Origin: an uncultured Spirochaetota bacterium
GTDB lineage: Bacteria > Spirochaetota > Brachyspiria > Brachyspirales > Brachyspiraceae
DNA: 64,000 bases
Direction: 5' to 3'
Assembly (NCBI GenBank): GCA_944390575.1
Contig: CALXQJ010000002.1
Location: forward strand, 372,001-436,000
This document shows, in pieces, positions 2,317-62,184 of this stretch. Position 1 is the stretch's first letter, and each line of letters begins with the position of its first letter. The translations under genes were made by a program, and so were the position numbers. The notes below the pieces were generated by a model. The model was not told where the DNA came from and did not search any database. It saw nothing but the letters and a program-made list of their open reading frames with translations.

Positions 2317-3405
2317 AATTATATTTAATATTCTTTTTCTTAATTCATCTATATTAATATTATTTTTTGCACTTATAAGTATAACATCATCAAAAGAAGT
2401 TTTTATTTTATTTATTTCTACTTTATCTAAACTATCTGACTTATTAAATACTATAATTCTTTTTATATTATGAGCTTCTATTTCTTTTATAGTGCTTTCT
2501 ACATTTATAATTTTATCATTTAAATGTTCATCACTAGCATCTACCAAATGTATAAGTAAATCAGCTTCTATAACTTCTGATAGTGTAGATTTAAAAGATG
2601 CTATAAGTGTATGTGGTAGTCTATCTATAAATCCAACAGTATCAGATATTATAGCCTCTACCGGTGCATCATTTGATAAATATAACTTCCTTGTATGTGT
2701 GTCTAATGTAGCAAAAAGTTTATCTTCTACATATACTTTTTCTTTGCATAATAAATTAAATAAAGTGCTTTTTCCTGCATTGGTATATCCTACTATAGCA
2801 ACTCTAAATACAGAACTTCTTCCTTTTCTTGCTGTTGAGGCAGAGTTTTCTTGTTTTTTTAATTGCATCTTTAATTTATGAATACGCTCCCTTGCACGTC
2901 TTCTATCATATTCAAGTTGTTTTTCTCCAGCACCACCTCTAAGACCAATCCCCCCTTTTATCTGACTTAAATTTGTTCTTTTTCCCTTTAATCTTGGATA
3001 TTGAAACTCTAAAAATGCTAATTCTACTTGCATTTTAGCAATATTAGTTTTAGCACGCATAGCAAATATTTCTAATATTATTTCTGTTCTTGTTAATGCT
3101 TTTATATTTGAATCGGTCTCTATAGAGCTTACTTGAGAACCACTTAATTCATTATCAAATATCAAATACTCTACATTATCATTTATAGCCATCAATTTAA
3201 TTTCTTCTAATTTTCCTTTTCCTATATAAGTAGAGGCATCTATTTTTTGTTGTATATATGAAAATCTATTTATAACTTTATAATTAGCAGTGTCGCATAA
3301 CATAGAAAGCTCATCTAATATTTTGTCTATATTAGGTTTTGAATACCTATTTTGTTTACTATCTACTACAAATATAATATATGCTTTTTTTATATTGTTA
3401 TTCAT
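2299..3405 (-). CDS. hflX: ribosome-associated GTPase HflX
   Basis: HflX is a translational GTPase that binds the 50S subunit and splits stalled ribosomes. The N-terminal HflX domain includes 'DASTYIGKGKLEEI' (about residues 56-69) and the glycine-rich 'GGIGLRGGAGEKQLE' linker near 151-165. The GTPase domain follows: G1 GYTNAGKST at 206-214, G3 DTVGFIDRLPH, G4 NKSD, G5 SAKN. The 368-residue length is normal for short HflX proteins without a long C-terminal extension. It lies 14 nt downstream of yqeK on the same strand and is probably in one operon with it. The stop overlaps the convergent antiporter gene by 18 nt. The ribosome binding site is weak (A-rich). Confidence 0.93.
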   Translation of the reverse strand: MNNNIKKAYIIFVVDSKQNRYSKPNIDKILDELSMLCDTANYKVINRFSYIQQKIDASTYIGKGKLEEIKLMAINDNVEYLIFDNELSGSQVSSIETDSNIKALTRTEIILEIFAMRAKTNIAKMQVELAFLEFQYPRLKGKRTNLSQIKGGIGLRGGAGEKQLEYDRRRARERIHKLKMQLKKQENSASTARKGRSSVFRVAIVGYTNAGKSTLFNLLCKEKVYVEDKLFATLDTHTRKLYLSNDAPVEAIISDTVGFIDRLPHTLIASFKSTLSEVIEADLLIHLVDASDEHLNDKIINVESTIKEIEAHNIKRIIVFNKSDSLDKVEINKIKTSFDDVILISAKNNINIDELRKRILNIILDLSE

Positions 3406-18295: not shown

Positions 18296-19330
18296 ATGGC
18301 TGCAGCAAAACAGCAAGAAGAAAAAAAACAAAGAGTATTAAGTGGTCGTCAGAAGGTTGCTATATTCTTAGTTTCACTTGGGATGGAGGCTTCTAGCGAA
18401 ATATTTAAACACTTAAGAGAAGAGGAAATAGAGCAAATTACTTTTGATATTGCAAGACTTGAGAATATAGATTCATCAGATAAAGACTCTGTATTTAGAG
18501 AGTTTCAGGATATGATGATAGCTCAAGACTTTATAACTCAGGGTGGTATAGATTATGCTCGTGACTTGCTTGAAAGATCACTCGGTAGTCAAAAGGCAAG
18601 TGATATTATTAATAGATTAACTTCTTCTCTACAAGTGCGTCCATTTGATTTTATTCGCCGTACAGACCCTGCACACTTACTTAACTTTATACAAGGAGAA
18701 CATCCTCAAACTATAGCACTTATTTTAGCCTACTTAGAGCCAAATAAAGCAGCAAGTATATTAGGAGCTTTACCTGTAGAAGTTCAGCCTGATGTAGCTA
18801 AGCGTATTGCTGTTATGGATAGAACTTCTCCTGAAGTTTTACGTGAGGTTGAGCGTGTACTTGAGAGAAAATTATCTACTCTTGCTAGTGAAGACTTTAC
18901 TTCTGCTGGTGGTATAGATTCTATTGTAGAGATTATTAACAGTGTTGATAGATCTACAGAAAAGAGTATCATAGAAAGTCTTGAAGAGGATGATCCAGAA
19001 TTAGCAGAAGAGATTAAGAAGCGTATGTTTGTATTTGAAGATATTGTACTTCTTGATGATAGAGCTATTCAGAAGGTATTACGTGAAGTTGATACTGCTG
19101 ACTTGGCTAAGGCGTTAAAGAGTGTTGACTCTGATGCACAAGATAAGGTTTATAGAAATATGTCTAAGCGTGCTGCTGCTTTACTTAAAGAGGATATGGA
19201 CTTTATGGGACCTGTTCGTCTTAAGGATGTTGAAGAAGCTCAGCAGAAGATTGTTAATATTATACGTAAATTAGAAGAGCAAGGTGATATTGTTGTTGCA
19301 CGTGCTGGTGAAGATGAGATGGTTGTGTGA
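18296..19330 (+). CDS. fliG: flagellar motor switch protein FliG
   Basis: Rotor/switch protein linking FliF to FliM and interacting with MotA. The 344-residue product contains the N-terminal FliF-binding domain ('GRQKVAIFLVSLGMEASSEI'), the middle domain with 'EHPQTIALILAYLEP' (EHPQ motif), and the C-terminal torque domain with charged helix 'MFVFEDIVLLDDRAIQKVLR'. All are full length. GGGGAG precedes the ATG. Spirochaetes often have two FliG paralogues; this copy, in operon with fliF and fliHIJ and carrying the intact charged helix, looks like the motor-active FliG. A 75-bp gap separates it from fliF. Confidence 0.96.
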   Translation: MAAAKQQEEKKQRVLSGRQKVAIFLVSLGMEASSEIFKHLREEEIEQITFDIARLENIDSSDKDSVFREFQDMMIAQDFITQGGIDYARDLLERSLGSQKASDIINRLTSSLQVRPFDFIRRTDPAHLLNFIQGEHPQTIALILAYLEPNKAASILGALPVEVQPDVAKRIAVMDRTSPEVLREVERVLERKLSTLASEDFTSAGGIDSIVEIINSVDRSTEKSIIESLEEDDPELAEEIKKRMFVFEDIVLLDDRAIQKVLREVDTADLAKALKSVDSDAQDKVYRNMSKRAAALLKEDMDFMGPVRLKDVEEAQQKIVNIIRKLEEQGDIVVARAGEDEMVV

Positions 19331-53207: not shown

Positions 53208-55325
53208 GTGGCTACAATGAATGCTAAAAATATTTTAGATTCGATAAAGTTACCATCTAATGTAACTCGTCATACTGATGTACTTTTTGCAATAGGTGCA
53301 GTAATGGTTATAATGATGCTCATTATACCATTACCTAATATCATATTAGACTTTTTACTTATTACTAATATAATAATTTCTCTTTTAATTTTACTTATGG
53401 TTCTTAGTGTTAAGAGTGCTAATGAGTTTAGTGTATTTCCTTCTGTGTTACTTGTAATGACTGCTTTTAGACTTGCACTTAATGTTTCTACTACAAGAGC
53501 TATTTTAACACAAGGAGCAAATTTTAATGGTAAGATAATAACTTCATTTGCGGACTTTGTAGTATCTGGAAATATAGTAGTAGGAGTTGTTGTATTTATT
53601 ATTCTTATAATAGTTCAGTTTGTAGTTATCACTAAGGGTGCTACAAGAGTTGCTGAGGTTTCTGCTCGTTTTGCATTAGATAGTATGCCTTCTAAGATGA
53701 TGGCAGTAGAATCAGAACTTCAGGCTGGAGCTATTACAGATAAAGAGGCTGAAGAGAAGAGAAAGAAGATACGTGGTGAGAGTGATTTTTATGGTACTAT
53801 GGACGGTGCTTCTAAGTTTGTACAGGGTGATGTTATAGCTGGTATTATTATTACTGTTATAAATATTATAGGTGGACTTATAATAGGTATGACTTTACGT
53901 GGTGAACCTTTTACACAGGCACTTAATGCTTATACTCGTTTTACTGTTGGTGATGGACTTGTGAGTCAGATACCTTCTTTCTTTATGAGTTTTGCTACTG
54001 GTTTGCTTGTTACTCGTAGTAGTAGTGAGGATAATTTGTCTACTCAAGTTGCTGTTCAAGTATTTGCAAAACCTAAGAATTTATTTATAGGAGCTGCTTT
54101 TGCATTTTTCTTGATGCTTCTACCTGGTTTCCCTAAGATAGCGTTATTTGTTATATCTCTTGCTTTATTTTTAGCTGGATATGCTTTAAGAAAAGAGCAA
54201 AAAGAACTTGGACTTAATGAAGATGGTAGTAGAACTGATGCTGAAGAACAAGCTCCACAAGGACCACTTGATGTTACCCCTTTCTTGAAAGTTGAAAAGA
54301 TTGAATTATCTGTGGGTGCTTCTTTGATACCACTTGCTTTAGAATCTGAAGGTGGGGATTTAATTAACAGAATAAGTCAGGTGCGTCGTGAACTTGCTTT
54401 GGAAGTTGGACTTGTTGTACCACCTGTTCGTGTTGTAGATAATACTGTTATAGAACCTGATGAGTATACTATTAGTATTAATGGTACAGAAATATCAAAA
54501 GGTTTTGTACGTCCAACTATGCTTTTAGCTTTGAATGCTAATTCACCTAAAGGACCTACTCCAGAGTGTGAGCAAGTAAAAGAACCTGCTTTTGGTCTTC
54601 CTGCATATTGGATTAAAGTTGATGAAAAGACTACTGCTGAAGAGAAAGGATTTATGTTATTTCAACCTTCTTCTGTTATTGCCACACATTTTAGTGAAAC
54701 TATTAAGAGAAATGCTAATCTTCTTATTGGTCGTGAAGAAGTTCAGAATATACTTGATCTTATTAAAGATGATCATAAGGCACTTGTTTCTGAAGTACTT
54801 GCTGCAAAACCTCGTAATGAAAGTCCACTTGGATATATTCAAAAAGTATTACAGAACTTATTACAAGAAGAAGTACCTATTAGAAATAGTGTTGCTATAT
54901 TAGAAGGTGTTGCTGATGCTATTTCTATTATGGGTAGTGAACAGGCTACGGAGCTTGTTCGTACAAGACTTGCAGCTCAAATTTCTCAAATGGTTGCTGA
55001 TCCTGAGAGAAATATTAGAGTTATAACTTTAAGTCAGCAATTACAAAATAATATAGCACAAAACTTAGCTGATACTGGAAACTTACAAGGTTCTCAAATG
55101 ATTGCTATGAGTTTTGAGAGTATGCAGGCTTTAATTAAGAATATAAAAGATGCAGTTAAATTGGTACAAGATTCTGGTGTTGCTGATATAGTATTTTTAA
55201 CTTCTCCATTAATTAGAAGACCATTATATCAGTTTATTGCTAAGAATATTGGAAAATATAAAGTTATTGCTACAACAGAAATAGCACAAGGGTATAATGT
55301 ACAAGGTGTTGCTAGTATTAAATAA
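53208..55325 (+). CDS. flhA: flagellar export protein FlhA
   Basis: Largest export-gate subunit, forms the nonameric ring that docks chaperone-substrate complexes. 705 residues: eight membrane helices in residues 20-330, the FHIPEP-family block 'FPSVLLVMTAFRLALNVSTTR', and a cytoplasmic domain beyond about 355. The 'GDVIAGIIITVINIIGGLII' segment is also typical. The GTG at 53208 is chosen since GGGGAG lies 10 nt upstream; the ATG at 53217 is too far. It follows flhB by 23 bp and is followed by two microprotein genes and flhF. Confidence 0.97.
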   Translation: MATMNAKNILDSIKLPSNVTRHTDVLFAIGAVMVIMMLIIPLPNIILDFLLITNIIISLLILLMVLSVKSANEFSVFPSVLLVMTAFRLALNVSTTRAILTQGANFNGKIITSFADFVVSGNIVVGVVVFIILIIVQFVVITKGATRVAEVSARFALDSMPSKMMAVESELQAGAITDKEAEEKRKKIRGESDFYGTMDGASKFVQGDVIAGIIITVINIIGGLIIGMTLRGEPFTQALNAYTRFTVGDGLVSQIPSFFMSFATGLLVTRSSSEDNLSTQVAVQVFAKPKNLFIGAAFAFFLMLLPGFPKIALFVISLALFLAGYALRKEQKELGLNEDGSRTDAEEQAPQGPLDVTPFLKVEKIELSVGASLIPLALESEGGDLINRISQVRRELALEVGLVVPPVRVVDNTVIEPDEYTISINGTEISKGFVRPTMLLALNANSPKGPTPECEQVKEPAFGLPAYWIKVDEKTTAEEKGFMLFQPSSVIATHFSETIKRNANLLIGREEVQNILDLIKDDHKALVSEVLAAKPRNESPLGYIQKVLQNLLQEEVPIRNSVAILEGVADAISIMGSEQATELVRTRLAAQISQMVADPERNIRVITLSQQLQNNIAQNLADTGNLQGSQMIAMSFESMQALIKNIKDAVKLVQDSGVADIVFLTSPLIRRPLYQFIAKNIGKYKVIATTEIAQGYNVQGVASIK

Positions 55326-55360: not shown

Positions 55361-55534
55361 ATGAAAACTATAAAAATATTTGGTAGAAACAGAGAAGAAA
55401 TAGAACGTCAGGCTAGAAATAAATATGGTGAAAATTATTTTATTATTAGCATTAAAGAATTACATAAAAGATGTTTATTTGGTAGTATAAAAAGGCATTT
55501 TGAAGTTTCTATTGGTGTTTTAGAAAATTTTTAA
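55361..55534 (+). CDS. 57-residue Jag_N-like microprotein A
   Basis: A short gene between flhA and flhF. AAGAGGAT lies 8-10 nt before the ATG at 55361. The product starts 'MKTIKIFGRNREEIERQARN' and continues with 'GENYFIISI' and 'CLFGSIKRHFEVSI'. It aligns with microprotein B and with the first 60 residues of the neighbouring FlhF: G-R-N/D, a helix with E and A, G, then 'FIIS', then a basic 'FG.IKR' turn. The pattern matches the small Jag_N fold (beta-alpha-beta-beta, with 'GFLG.GKK'). Function is unknown. That it is real is supported by its ribosome binding site, operon position and paralogy. Confidence 0.7.
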   Translation: MKTIKIFGRNREEIERQARNKYGENYFIISIKELHKRCLFGSIKRHFEVSIGVLENF

Positions 55535-55552
55535 TTAAGGTTATTTATTATT

Positions 55553-55723
55553 ATGAAAACATTTCGGATTATTGGTAGAGATAAAAGAGAGGCTTTAAAA
55601 AAGGCACATAATATTTATGGAAAGGATGGTTTTTTTATTATTAGTGCTGAAGATAAAGAATGTAAGTTTTTTTTGGGTTTCATTAAGAGACAAGTTTTTG
55701 AATTAAAAGTTGTTCGTGTTTAA
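55553..55723 (+). CDS. 56-residue Jag_N-like microprotein B
   Basis: Second short gene, 18 bp after the first. TAAGG lies upstream of the ATG at 55553, spaced about 14 nt. Product begins 'MKTFRIIGRDKREALKKAHN', then 'GKDGFFIISAED', then 'KFFLGFIKRQVFELKVV'. Residue-by-residue similarity to microprotein A is high in the first 30 residues and the basic 'IKR' turn is shared. It resembles the Jag_N-like N-terminus of FlhF, which begins 30 bp downstream. Independent of FlhF it may bind the same partner or dimerise with it (inference). Confidence 0.7.
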   Translation: MKTFRIIGRDKREALKKAHNIYGKDGFFIISAEDKECKFFLGFIKRQVFELKVVRV

Positions 55724-55753
55724 TATATATATTATTTTTGGGGAGTAAAACAA

Positions 55754-57673
55754 ATGTCTGCTGTTGATATACGATATTTTAGGGGGCGAAATAAAAAAGA
55801 AGCTATTGCTAAGGCTACTATAGAACATGGTAGCAACTTTATCTATTTAAGTGATAGAGAAGTTAAAGTTGGTGGCTTTTTAGGACTTGGTCAGAAGACT
55901 GAGTGTGAAATTAAGATTATGCTTAATAAATCTAAATTGGATAGAAAACCTTTAAAAGATGAGTCTTTAGCAGAACCTATTAGACCTTATAAAAGTGAAG
56001 ATAGTGATATAGATGATAATTATGAGAATAAATTAATTAGTGATAGAATAGAAATAAAAAAGCATACAACAGAAACTATAGATGCTTCTGAGATGGCTGA
56101 TAGAATAGTAGCGGTAACTAAAGCATTAAAGCAAGCTCAAAAAGAAAAACATAATGAAGCTCTTAAGCAGCAACAAGAACTTGATAATAGAATTGATAGT
56201 AGAAAGACAGAAATACTTGCAGAAGCTCGTGAAGAGATTATGTCTGATACTTTACTTAATGATACGCATGATATAAAAGAAGAAAAAGATTTTATACCTA
56301 TTAGCAATAATAATTTACATCTAAATAATGATATACATTATAATAATTCATATAGAGATTATGATGATTATTCTAATTTTAATAAGAATGATGATAATCC
56401 ATATTTAAATATTAAATCATCCTTAATGGAACATCAAAGAAGTGTGAGAAATTATAATAATAATCAAGCTTCATTAGATGATAGTGTAAAGAGAATAGTA
56501 CAGGATCAATTAAAAGATATAGTAAAAGAATACTTAGAAAATAATATTCCAAACTTAAATAAGAATAATGACTTAGAACAGTATCATACTAATTATTCTT
56601 CTTTTGATAATCATTATACAAATAGCAGACAAAGTAATATTTATAGAGATAGTTATAGAGACAATTCAAGAAGATATTATAGTGGATTTGATAATAATAA
56701 TCAGTATGAAGATGATGGGTATAGAAGTAGTTTAAATGAGATTAAGGAACTTAGAGAAAATAGATTAAGAAATAATAATAGTGAACGCACATCTAAATTG
56801 TCTAATAATAGAAGAAACTACTTTGATAGACATTATGAAAGTAAGAGTCATAATACTCAAAATGATAGCGTAGAGTATAATGATGCTATGGAAGATGTGT
56901 TTCAGTTTTTAAGAAGTAGAGAGTTTCCTGAAGAGGTATTAATAGAGCTTAGAGACTATTTATTAAAGTCGAGTAATGCAAGATTTGTACAGTCTCGTGA
57001 GATAATAAAAGAGGAAATTGATAAGTATTTTGCTAATAGACTTATTTTTGCTGATGGTATAGAGATTGGCAATAAGAAAAAAATAATAGTATTTGTAGGA
57101 CCTACAGGGGTTGGTAAAACTACAACTATACCAAAAATAGCATCACAGTATATGAAGTCTGGTAAGAAAGTTTCTTTTGTTACTATAGACAATTATAGAA
57201 TAGGAGCAGTAGATCAACTTCAGAAATATGCTAATATAATGAAAGTGCCTTTTAGTAGTGCAAGTACTCCAGAAGCATTGAGAGCAGAGATTAGAAAAAT
57301 GGATTCTTCTTCTCTACTTTTTATAGATACTATGGGACGTTCTCCAAAGGCTACTGATGAAATACTTTCAGTTGCTCGATATTTTACTACTGTAGGTAGA
57401 TTTGATTTAGATATTCAGCTTGTTATGAGTGCTACGGCTAAGTATAAGGATGCTGTAAAAATAATGAATTCATTTAAACCTACAAATTATAAAGGTGTTA
57501 TTTTAACTAAATTAGATGAAACAGATTATTTAGCTTCATCTATATGTGCTATTAGTAAGTTTAAGCTTCCTATTACTTATGTTACTCATGGTCAGGGAGT
57601 GCCTAAGGATATATCTACAGCAAGGAAGTATGGTGTTAATATAGTGCAAGGGTTGTATGGTAATTTAAAATAA
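55754..57673 (+). CDS. flhF: flagellar placement GTPase FlhF with Jag_N-like N-terminus
   Basis: SRP-type GTPase that sets the place and number of flagella at the cell pole. 639 residues. N-terminus (1-60) 'YFRGRNKKEAIAKATIEHG' and 'VKVGGFLGLGQKTECEIKI' resembles the Jag_N fold and the two small genes just upstream. Residues about 80-380 are an Asn/Asp/Tyr-rich, probably disordered linker. The NG domain follows: G1 GPTGVGKTTT at about 450-459, 'DNYRIGAVDQLQKYA', 'DTMGRSP' (G3) and 'TKLDET' (G4). Normal FlhFs are about 400-450 residues, so the linker is unusual. flhG follows 20 bp later. Confidence 0.93.
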   Translation: MSAVDIRYFRGRNKKEAIAKATIEHGSNFIYLSDREVKVGGFLGLGQKTECEIKIMLNKSKLDRKPLKDESLAEPIRPYKSEDSDIDDNYENKLISDRIEIKKHTTETIDASEMADRIVAVTKALKQAQKEKHNEALKQQQELDNRIDSRKTEILAEAREEIMSDTLLNDTHDIKEEKDFIPISNNNLHLNNDIHYNNSYRDYDDYSNFNKNDDNPYLNIKSSLMEHQRSVRNYNNNQASLDDSVKRIVQDQLKDIVKEYLENNIPNLNKNNDLEQYHTNYSSFDNHYTNSRQSNIYRDSYRDNSRRYYSGFDNNNQYEDDGYRSSLNEIKELRENRLRNNNSERTSKLSNNRRNYFDRHYESKSHNTQNDSVEYNDAMEDVFQFLRSREFPEEVLIELRDYLLKSSNARFVQSREIIKEEIDKYFANRLIFADGIEIGNKKKIIVFVGPTGVGKTTTIPKIASQYMKSGKKVSFVTIDNYRIGAVDQLQKYANIMKVPFSSASTPEALRAEIRKMDSSSLLFIDTMGRSPKATDEILSVARYFTTVGRFDLDIQLVMSATAKYKDAVKIMNSFKPTNYKGVILTKLDETDYLASSICAISKFKLPITYVTHGQGVPKDISTARKYGVNIVQGLYGNLK

Positions 57674-57693: not shown

Positions 57694-58572
57694 ATGAAAG
57701 ATCAAGCAGATGAATTAAGAAAAATGATGGGGTCTAAAGATAAGCGTCCTCAACGTGTTATTAGTATATCTAGTGGTAAGGGTGGTGTTGGAAAAACTAA
57801 TATTGCTATTAATTTATCTATAGCTTTACAACAGCTTGGACAAAATGTTATTTTGATAGATGCTGACTTGGGGCTTGGAAATGTTAATGTAATATTAGGT
57901 CAAATTCCTGAATATAACTTATACCATGTAGTTAAGGGTACTAAAAAAATACATGAAGTTATGATAGAAACTGAGTATGGTATTAGGTATATACCAGGTG
58001 CTAGTGGTTTTTCTTCTTTGGCAAATCTTTCGGGGCGTGGACTTACTAAACTTATTAGTAGTATGGAGTCATTGAATGATTCTGATATTATTATTATAGA
58101 TACTGGTGCTGGTATTTCGGATAATGTACTTTATTTTCTTCTTTCTGCTGATGAAAATATTGTTGTTACTACTCCAGAACTTACTGCTATACTTGATGCT
58201 TATGCGGTTGTTAAGTCTATATATCCTGAGAATTCAGAGGCTGATATAAAGATATTGGTAAACAGAGTAACAAAGCCATCAGAAGGAAAAGATGTAGGTC
58301 AAAAGATTATAACTACATCAAAAAAGCATTTAGGTATGGATGTTAAGTATTTAGGATATGTTTTTGAAGATAAAACAGTACCATATTCTGTAGCAGAGCG
58401 TTTACCTTTTTATCAATATGATAATAAGTGTCAGGCTTCTCTTTCTCTTACTACTATTGCTAAGAGAATTATAGATATGGAATATGATGAGACTAAAGAA
58501 GCTAAGGGTATTAGCGGTTTTATGGAAGCTTTATTTGCTTTTGTAAATAAAAAAATAGAGATTATTAAGTGA
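57694..58572 (+). CDS. flhG: flagellar number regulator FlhG (MinD-like ATPase)
   Basis: ParA/MinD-type ATPase that restrains FlhF. 292 residues. The deviant Walker A is 'SSGKGGVGKTNIAINL' near residues 26-40; 'VILIDADLGLGNVNVILG' and the switch 'IIIDTGAGISDNV' follow. The short N-terminal lead 'KDQADELRKMMGSKDK' matches the FlhG activation helix (D-Q-A-x-x-L-R) that stimulates FlhF's GTPase. Length is typical. The C-terminus has a probable amphipathic membrane-targeting helix ('SGFMEALFAFVNKK'). Confidence 0.95.
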   Translation: MKDQADELRKMMGSKDKRPQRVISISSGKGGVGKTNIAINLSIALQQLGQNVILIDADLGLGNVNVILGQIPEYNLYHVVKGTKKIHEVMIETEYGIRYIPGASGFSSLANLSGRGLTKLISSMESLNDSDIIIIDTGAGISDNVLYFLLSADENIVVTTPELTAILDAYAVVKSIYPENSEADIKILVNRVTKPSEGKDVGQKIITTSKKHLGMDVKYLGYVFEDKTVPYSVAERLPFYQYDNKCQASLSLTTIAKRIIDMEYDETKEAKGISGFMEALFAFVNKKIEIIK

Positions 58573-58601
58573 TTGGAAATATTAGTGTATAGGTGATAGT
58601 T

Positions 58602-59282
58602 ATGAATAGTTTGATAGAAAAGATAAAACGATATTACTCTAGTATTTTTGGTAAATTTGCCATTATGATAATGGGTTTAGCTTTTATTATAACATTTATA
58701 GTCTCATTTTTATTTAGAAATAGAATAGATGTTACTTTTTTTAAGTCTATAGTTTCTATGATTATAGTAGGTATTATTTTATACTTGCTTAGTTTTGTAT
58801 TAAAGAAATATTTAGGAGATATTATTGATACTAGTAGTGTAGATAATACTTTAACTCCTTCTTTTCCTGTTGATATTAATAATAATACTGAAACTAATAC
58901 AGAGAATAAAGAGTCTGAAGATACTATTGAAACTGTATTAGAGAATAATGATAATAATGTAGAAGTAAATGATAAAGATATAAAAGTAGCAAGTTTTATA
59001 GATAAAGATGACGCTACTTCTAATATGAGAGGAGATATAGGAGATATTATTATGAGTGCTCCTTCTTATAATGATTTTGTAAGTGGGAATTATTCTAGCA
59101 CATCATCATTATCTTCTATTCCTAATACAACAACAAGTAGTAGTAGTTTTGATTCTATGTATACTTCTACAGATAAGAAAGTAAATGAGATGAATGTAGA
59201 GAGAGCAGCATTAGAAGATCCAGATAAAACAGCTAAGGCTTTAAGGACTATGATGTCTAAGGATGATAAAAAAGAAAATTAG
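58602..59282 (+). CDS. two-helix membrane protein between flhG and fliA, unknown function
   Basis: A 226-residue protein. Two hydrophobic helices (about residues 18-38 and 46-68) come first. A long Asn/Thr/Ser/Asp-rich tail follows, with no recognised domain and likely disordered ('ENNDNNVEVNDKDIKVAS'). AGGTGA just upstream supports ATG 58602; a GTG nine bases earlier lies within that site. It sits 29 bp after flhG and 61 bp before fliA in the flagellar operon, which suggests an accessory role in motor placement or signalling. That is inference. Confidence 0.6.
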   Translation: MNSLIEKIKRYYSSIFGKFAIMIMGLAFIITFIVSFLFRNRIDVTFFKSIVSMIIVGIILYLLSFVLKKYLGDIIDTSSVDNTLTPSFPVDINNNTETNTENKESEDTIETVLENNDNNVEVNDKDIKVASFIDKDDATSNMRGDIGDIIMSAPSYNDFVSGNYSSTSSLSSIPNTTTSSSSFDSMYTSTDKKVNEMNVERAALEDPDKTAKALRTMMSKDDKKEN

Positions 59283-60156: not shown

Positions 60157-60183
60157 ATTATTTTTTTAGTGAGTGTAGTACTT

Positions 60184-62184
60184 ATGAATGAATTAAGAAA
60201 AAAAATATTAGAAAGTGATTTTTATAAAGAAGTTTATGATACACAAGATGTTATGTCTATAGAGTTAGAAGTTTCTTCTATAGAGGCAGGTATTGAAGAG
60301 GCTACTGCAATATTTCAGTGTCCTGTAGATGAACTTTCTTATAAGGTTATTAGAGATGCTAAAAAGGGTATTTTTAATATTGGTTCTACTAAATATTTAG
60401 TAAAGTACACTCATACACAACATTCTAAGTCTAATCTTTTATTTACTGGTTCTGAGTGCAAAGTAGATAATAAGCCATCTTTTTCTAAAAATGATATTAT
60501 TAATAAAGATACAGATATTATAGTAAGGGTAAAAAGAGATGGTGTATATTTAAAGATATTACCGCCTCAAGGTACTGGAAAGAGAATTAATGATATTACA
60601 GTTTTAGAAGGAAAGTTGCTTGCTTATGGTGTAGTAGAATATGATTCTTCTTTAGCTAAGGAATTATTAGAATCTCAAACTGGAGAGCTTGTTCGTATAG
60701 GTGATTGGGATGAGATGAAGTCTAAGTATAATGCTAAGCTTACATATTCTGTATCTGAAGATAAGATGCAGGCTTTTATTACTGCCACTTCTCCTAAAGA
60801 TGGTGGTCGTGAAGTTGATATTGAAGATGCACTTGAACTACTTAAAAATAGTGGTATTACTTATGGTGTATTAGAAGATGATATTAAAAAATCTTTAGAT
60901 GATGGTAATTTTAATGTTCCTATACTTGCTGCTGAGGGAAAGCAACCTATTCATGGTAGAAATGCTAAACTTGAATATTTAATAGATATAGATGGTAAGA
61001 CTATGCTTGAAGAAACTGAGGATGAAGATAGCATAGATTATAAGAGTTTTAGTAAGATAATAAATATAGAAGAAGGGGAGAGACTTGCTGAGAAATTACC
61101 TGCTACTGTGGGTGAATCGGGCATTGATGTTTTTGGAAACTCTGTTGATGCTAAGGATGGTAAGTCTATTGAGTTTAAGGATATACTTGGTAATAATGTT
61201 AAGATGGATGATGAGGATAGGTATATTATTGCTTCTATTTCTGGTCAGGTTATAGTTAAGAATAAAATTATTAGTGTTGAGCCTATATTTGAGGTTGCTG
61301 GAGATGTTGGTCCTGGCACTGGAAATATTACTTTTGTTGGGTCTGTTATTGTTAAGGGTAATGTTGAGGATAATTATTCTATTAAGGCTGAGGGACATAT
61401 AGAAGTTAATGGTACTGTTGGTAAGGCTGATTTAGAGGCTGATGGAGATATTGTTGTTAAGCTTGGTATACAGGGTAATGATAATAGTTATGTTAAGGCT
61501 GGTGGAAATGTTATTGCTAAGTTTATACAGTTTTCTAATATAGAAGCGGGAAATAATGTTATTGTTACTGAGGCTATATTAAATTCTAATATAGATGCTG
61601 ATAATAAAATTATTGTTAATGGTAAAAGAGCATCTGCTTCTGGTGGTAGATTAAGAGCATTATACGAGGTAAATTGTAAGACTATAGGTTCTACTTCTGG
61701 AGCTAAGACTATTATAGAAACTGGTTATAGTCCTGCTAAGAGAAGAATGATAGATTCTATGAGTAAGGAAAAAGAAGAACTTGAAGTTGCTATTGAAGAT
61801 TTTCAAAATAATATAAAAGGCTTAGAACAGCTTGCTAAGAAGAGTAAGTTAGATGATGAGAAAAAAGAACAATTAAGAAGCTTTAAAGAACAGCTTGAAC
61901 AGTCTATTAGTAGACGTGATGAGATTGTTATAGATAGAGAGAATATGTTGCAACAGATGGAGATTGAGAAGGTTAAGTCTTATATTAGTGCTGGTAAGGA
62001 GATATTTTCTGGGGTTGAGCTTATTATTGGGGCTGCTGAGTTTAATATTAGACAAGAATATAAGGCTATTACTTTTTTTGAGGCTGATGGAATTATTCAA
62101 AGTGAAAAGTATAGAGGTGAAGCTGTGATAGATACTAAGTATGATAATAAGCCTGTTGCTGAGTTTAAGGGGTATGAAAGTTAA
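60184..62184 (+). CDS. fapA: flagellar assembly protein A-like (FapA/DUF342)
   Basis: DUF342-family protein of 666 residues. The N-terminal third includes 'IIVRVKRDGVYLKILPPQGT'. The central part is a predicted parallel beta-helix with regular Gly/Asn/Val spacing ('IKAEGHIEVNGTVGKADLEA', 'VKAGGNVIAKFIQFSNIEAG'). A coiled coil lies at about 520-610. FapA helps the FlhF-linked polar placement system in Vibrio; in clostridia and spirochaetes it follows fliA as here. The ATG at 60184 is chosen because a GTGAG-type site precedes it by 10 nt; a GTG 15 bases earlier has no site. It overlaps the next gene by one base (TAATG). Confidence 0.85.
   Translation: MNELRKKILESDFYKEVYDTQDVMSIELEVSSIEAGIEEATAIFQCPVDELSYKVIRDAKKGIFNIGSTKYLVKYTHTQHSKSNLLFTGSECKVDNKPSFSKNDIINKDTDIIVRVKRDGVYLKILPPQGTGKRINDITVLEGKLLAYGVVEYDSSLAKELLESQTGELVRIGDWDEMKSKYNAKLTYSVSEDKMQAFITATSPKDGGREVDIEDALELLKNSGITYGVLEDDIKKSLDDGNFNVPILAAEGKQPIHGRNAKLEYLIDIDGKTMLEETEDEDSIDYKSFSKIINIEEGERLAEKLPATVGESGIDVFGNSVDAKDGKSIEFKDILGNNVKMDDEDRYIIASISGQVIVKNKIISVEPIFEVAGDVGPGTGNITFVGSVIVKGNVEDNYSIKAEGHIEVNGTVGKADLEADGDIVVKLGIQGNDNSYVKAGGNVIAKFIQFSNIEAGNNVIVTEAILNSNIDADNKIIVNGKRASASGGRLRALYEVNCKTIGSTSGAKTIIETGYSPAKRRMIDSMSKEKEELEVAIEDFQNNIKGLEQLAKKSKLDDEKKEQLRSFKEQLEQSISRRDEIVIDRENMLQQMEIEKVKSYISAGKEIFSGVELIIGAAEFNIRQEYKAITFFEADGIIQSEKYRGEAVIDTKYDNKPVAEFKGYES

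Follow-up and report, generated by a model that had tools for sequence, protein, structure and literature searches.

How FlhF and FlhG fix the number and placement of flagella is not yet settled, a matter of interest in spirochaetes, whose cells carry several flagella at either end. The window analyzed here, a stretch of 64,000 nucleotides from a 2.0-Mb genome of the genus Brachyspira, carries two short genes immediately upstream of flhF, which raises the question of what these genes encode and whether their products could participate in FlhF-dependent flagellar placement.

Organization of the flhA-flhF interval

The upstream neighbor in this gene string is flhA (positions 53208 to 55325, plus strand; assigned by its ORF and synteny), which is followed on the same strand by gene A (55361 to 55534; 57 amino acids), gene B (55553 to 55723; 56 amino acids), and flhF (55754 to 57673), with 35, 18, and 30 bases, respectively, separating these four genes. 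The flhF product is an SRP-type GTPase of 639 amino acids (SRP54 GTPase, E value of 2.4e-34; TIGR03499, E value of 2e-50), in which the N-terminal domain, here referred to as the FliG Interaction Domain (FID; see below), is joined by a long linker to the NG domain. Downstream of flhF, the plus-strand gene flhG (57694 to 58572) encodes a MinD-type ATPase (Pfam ParA/AAA_31) whose N terminus, read directly as DQADELRKMM, contains the DQAxxLR motif described as FlhF activating (PMC11236974). It is followed by a gene for a membrane protein of 229 amino acids with two hydrophobic stretches (58593 to 59282), a gene for a sigma-70-family factor, and fapA. The 229-amino-acid protein occupies the place of flgV (bb0268 in Borrelia [PMC11607428]), and, since a Pfam search returned no match for it, its designation as FlgV is a guess from position.

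The two ORFs between flhA and flhF had been located correctly in an earlier, sequence-only reading of this DNA, in which they were proposed to form, together with the FlhF N terminus, a triplicated Jag_N-like domain with two free copies and a third fused to FlhF, the free copies possibly competing for the partner of FlhF. That reading had also drawn attention to the sequence GGFLGLGQK, which is indeed present in FlhF.

Relationship of A and B to the FlhF N terminus

The mutual similarity of A, B, and the FlhF N terminus is borne out by pairwise scores well beyond those of shuffled sequences and by profile-profile comparison. The Smith-Waterman scores of the A-B and B-FlhF pairs (90, z of 14.0, and 58, z of 7.9, respectively) were reached by none of 2,000 shuffles, and that of the A-FlhF pair (49, z of 5.7) by two of 2,000, while the A family matched the Brachyspirales FlhF N terminus with a profile-profile probability of 95.8% (E value of 7.5e-9). 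B is 43% identical to A (E value of 1e-5) and, when searched against the whole genome, was matched at exactly three places, these being B itself, A, and the FlhF N terminus. An ATG-initiated ORF of at least 56 codons occurred in only 1 of 5,000 shuffles of the spacer between A and flhF.

When all NCBIfam models were applied, 12 of 13 A orthologs matched TIGR03499 (FlhF) and no other family (best E value of 3e-7); the A protein of the window aligned with positions 1 to 52 of that model (E value of 1.7e-4; 21.7 bits), and B alone gave a weak match (E value of 0.015; 15.3 bits). Both scores lie far beneath the equivalog cutoff of 174.15 bits and neither protein contains a GTPase domain, so that A and B, judged by their sequences, are not FlhF. 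Conversely, a profile of A applied across other spirochaetes retrieved FlhF N termini, distant ones included (best E value of 1.6e-9). At the level of family annotation A goes unrecognized, with nothing above the Pfam cutoff and a subthreshold FlhF match in NCBIfam.

A phylogenetic tree, whose 59 columns support the groups but not the position of the root of A relative to other FlhF proteins, united B with A (support of 99/99) and placed the Brachyspirales FlhF FIDs in a separate group (98/98), thereby rejecting a recent origin of A and B by duplication, in place, of the FlhF N terminus of the window. The branch leading to B is very long (1.52). B derives from A by a later duplication and has diverged from it. 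The GGFLGLG turn of FlhF is absent from both proteins, which carry LFGSIKR (A) and FFLGFIKR (B) instead.

Predicted fold and classification

The N-terminal domain of Shewanella putrefaciens FlhF, which has been crystallized (PDB 9en1) and named FID, comprises three antiparallel strands and one helix (PMC11236974). Its counterpart in the window spans approximately the first 60 residues of FlhF (55754 to 55933, plus strand; TIGR03499, E value of 2.7e-6), and a profile of Brachyspirales FlhF N termini aligns with 9en1. AlphaFold2 models of A (pLDDT of 85.9) and B (pLDDT of 85.5) both display a beta-alpha-beta-beta arrangement; the B model was built from a mixed alignment, and the A model from A orthologs only, and the latter was thus not guided by FlhF. 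Among 350,542 chains searched using Foldseek, 9en1 ranked first for the A model (probability of 1.00; TM scores of 0.70/0.81), with an E value of only 0.05 owing to the shortness of the chain. VIA likewise ranked 9en1 first for A (Z of 7.3; root mean square deviation of 1.7; all 48 of 48 residues); dodecins (Z of 6.9), less than 1 unit away, count as a tie. For B, 9en1 was not among the best 50 Foldseek matches and attained first rank only upon VIA realignment (Z of 7.3; root mean square deviation of 1.5), followed by Jag 3gku_A.

The label "Jag_N-like" therefore probably holds for the fold class, although not for the nearest relative. Z values to Jag 3gku_A were 5.8 for A and 6.5 for B, a range in which a common arrangement can also score, and the closest structure for both proteins was the FlhF FID. 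By sequence, Jag_N (PF14804; cutoff of 25 bits), which represents the N termini of Jag/KhpB and FapA, matched none of the 13 A orthologs and did not match B, while the FlhF N terminus reached 19.1 bits, below the cutoff; Jag_N was consequently rejected as the nearest family. Searched against the PDB, the profile of Brachyspirales FlhF N termini gave only two hits, both weak, 9en1 (13.7 bits; E value of 0.53) and Jag 3gku (13.1 bits; E value of 0.82), and the profile of A alone yielded a chance hit only. Weak matches to Jag and FapA proteins were also obtained with a FID profile. Jag_N probably shares the fold at a greater distance, and, unlike Jag proteins, A and B lack KH and R3H domains and are linked to flhF.

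The models of A and B reproduce the three antiparallel strands and single helix of the FID (first 44 to 60 residues), and homology to FlhF N termini is evident for A directly and for B through its grouping with A. In size (45 to 60 residues), beta-alpha-beta-beta fold, and linkage to flhF the two proteins likewise resemble the S. putrefaciens FID, but they are separate proteins which end at their own stop codons after 57 and 56 residues and possess neither the linker nor the NG GTPase domain of a full FlhF. As they fit neither the definition of FlhF nor the Pfam Jag_N model, A and B are classed as free-standing relatives of the FID, an assignment which for A is almost certainly correct.

Conservation of and selection on gene A

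Gene A was found in all 31 Brachyspirales genomes searched, of which three belong to other genera within the family and two to a second family. The search took in 25 congeners, and species named in records of these loci are, among others, B. pilosicoli, B. hampsonii, B. innocens, and B. alvinipulli. In the Brachyspirales loci read, A is located directly between flhA and flhF. According to the sequence-only reading, loss of the ORFs in close relatives would refute its proposal. For A this refutation fails, every Brachyspirales genome examined having the same gene order; for B it succeeds, the gene being absent from every other genome searched.

A search of 393 Spirochaetota genomes for a free-standing FID elsewhere found none, the strong matches listed being long FlhF frames; the uniqueness of free-standing A is accordingly claimed within the Spirochaetota genomes examined. 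Forty genomes returned second hits. The strong ones fell within long ORFs, down to a piece of an FlhF N terminus close to the end of a contig, and those weak ones that could be read and were checked corresponded to Jag or FapA. Short-ORF hits in two other spirochaete genomes (G161 and G261) were dismissed as chance frames.

Between many congeners, A differs by 7 to 21 synonymous and 0 to 2 nonsynonymous changes, and the dN/dS ratio between many congeners is approximately 0.01 or below. For the same species, mean protein identity was 96.1% for A, 93.4% for the FlhF FID, and 95.0% for the FlhF G domain. The scarcity of nonsynonymous changes, coupled with this identity, argues that A is a functional, strongly constrained protein, and the substitution pattern indicates very strong purifying selection. 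The sole broken copy of A was encountered in Brachyspira sp. G79 (locus L063, from position 3001), where the frame ends after 41 codons beside runs of the base A, possibly reflecting a sequencing error, the alternative being a real loss.

Gene B and other duplicates at the locus

The proposal of a single domain present in triplicate holds as regards the shared domain, but the copies differ in age, A being ancient and order-wide while B, sought in the genomes of 60 relatives, was found only in that of the window. B may represent a specialized second modulator in this lineage or a decaying duplicate. That B is nonfunctional and in decay, leaving A as the only gene of consequence, is a serious possibility to which we assign slightly less than even weight: B is missing from all other genomes searched and sits on the very long branch noted above, and a further duplicate of the FlhF N terminus, of independent origin, occurs in three species under little constraint (dN/dS of 0.59 for one pair). 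Against decay, the B ORF is intact and its predicted fold is retained, its GC content by codon position (0.39/0.27/0.16) is coding-like and resembles that of flhF, and it has TAAGG as a plausible ribosome site.

The independent duplicate, of 83 to 84 amino acids, lies between A and flhF in three B. hampsonii-like species (L016, 1716 to 1970; L018, 1715 to 1969; L020, minus strand). It resembles FlhF (z of 29) rather than A (z of 2.5), is weakly constrained in the pair measured, and looks like a decaying copy. Duplication of the FID at this locus has therefore occurred more than once, with only A being kept long.

A proposed role for A in FliG availability

In S. putrefaciens, the B-domain of FlhF, which contains the FID, suffices for binding of FliG via the FID, and FliG bound to FlhF cannot bind FliM/FliN (PMC11236974). 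The parts of FliG that the FID binds are its middle and C-terminal domains. Binding of FliG by the homologous FID in that species makes FliG, for Brachyspira by inference, the candidate for the partner of FlhF for which the free copies were suggested to compete. From its homology to a domain of measured function, A would be expected to bind FliG. The cells have a single FliG, encoded at 18296 to 19330 of the window (plus strand; the only FliG_C match in the genome, E value of 3.4e-45). We consider FliG binding by A slightly more likely than not; A could have changed partner.

It is tentatively proposed, at a little under even likelihood, that A is a free FID which binds FliG, competes with FlhF or hands FliG over to it, and thereby sets flagellar start. 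A would occupy the single FliG at the site used by the FID of FlhF and, being unattached to a GTPase, would hold FliG but not anchor it at the pole; by analogy with FlhF-bound FliG, it may also keep FliG from FliM/FliN. Since a free FID has no means of polar tethering, the simplest effect would be titration of FliG from FlhF, or its withholding from FliM/FliN, which would limit the number of basal bodies started. In this manner, A would set the amount of FliG that FlhF can capture and, by extension, when or how many periplasmic flagella start at each pole. In this lineage, B would be another modulator of the same kind, or else a duplicate in the course of being lost. Features which count in favor of this modulator are the exclusive match to TIGR03499, the first rank of 9en1 for both A and B, the linkage to flhF, and the strong constraint on A, while the absence of the GGFLGLG turn from A and the commonness of a 57-residue fold of this kind (as exemplified by the dodecins) count against it. 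The more ambitious version, in which A serves throughout the order as a dedicated regulator of flagellar initiation, a soluble FID that uncouples the occupancy of FliG from its tethering at the pole in bipolar, multiflagellated, single-FliG spirochaetes, with A and B forming, in this lineage, a duplicated set of differing preferences, is doubtful.

The same homology would also serve for a positive factor, namely a small FliG chaperone or placeholder which stabilizes FliG in its free state and passes it on to FlhF or FliF instead of competing for it. Tagged FliG in E. coli is stable only when FlhF is present (PMC11236974), and the greater conservation of A than of FlhF's own FID fits an indispensable role; the sign of the effect is not legible in sequence, however, and we regard this alternative as unlikely. 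The constant adjacency of A to flhF could instead signify that A acts on FlhF, pairing with its FID or another part and tuning dimerization or the GTPase cycle. The fold class includes oligomers such as the dodecins, and the 9en1 entry contains 12 chains, but copies in a crystal need not denote an oligomer and FID-FID pairing is only putative; such a role is quite unlikely. Departure of A from FliG to another role known for Jag_N/dodecin/Alba-like folds, for instance nucleic acid or ligand binding, would be compatible with the matches to Jag, dodecin, and Alba folds (Z of 5 to 7) and with a basic loop stretch, KRKNIFG..KK; it is very unlikely given that the sequence relatives of A are FlhF only, that Pfam Jag_N does not match it, and that its linkage to flhF is strict.

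Returning to the FliG modulator, a conserved free copy of the FliG-holding module of FlhF suggests a simple and testable layer of control, FliG titration, and points to an unstudied regulator of flagellar start at the cell ends. A also offers a minimal protein, already to hand, with which to examine the FID-FliG interface, which has yet to be mapped. Whereas the FID itself is known, a free-standing, selected, and order-wide FID beside flhF is undescribed in the literature searched, in which no description of A or B was found, in line with the sequence-only reading; passages of a 2025 review mention the FID only inside FlhF. FipA, an FlhF-interacting protein of polar flagellates (PMC11620751), provides a functional parallel to A by description only, being a small accessory factor in FlhF-dependent placement.

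FliG complement and further fold relatives

A single full FliG is present in Brachyspirales, in contrast to the two or more FliG_C proteins of many other spirochaetes. A simple link between possession of A and a single FliG is ruled out, as other spirochaetes that lack A also have one FliG; loss of a second FliG does not by itself predict the presence of A.

The fapA gene (60169 to 62184), which belongs to the same gene string as flhF, encodes a protein with a Jag_N domain above the Pfam cutoff (29.6 bits; residues 37 to 79). Four domains of the FID/Jag_N fold, those of A, B, FlhF, and FapA, therefore occur within 7 kb.
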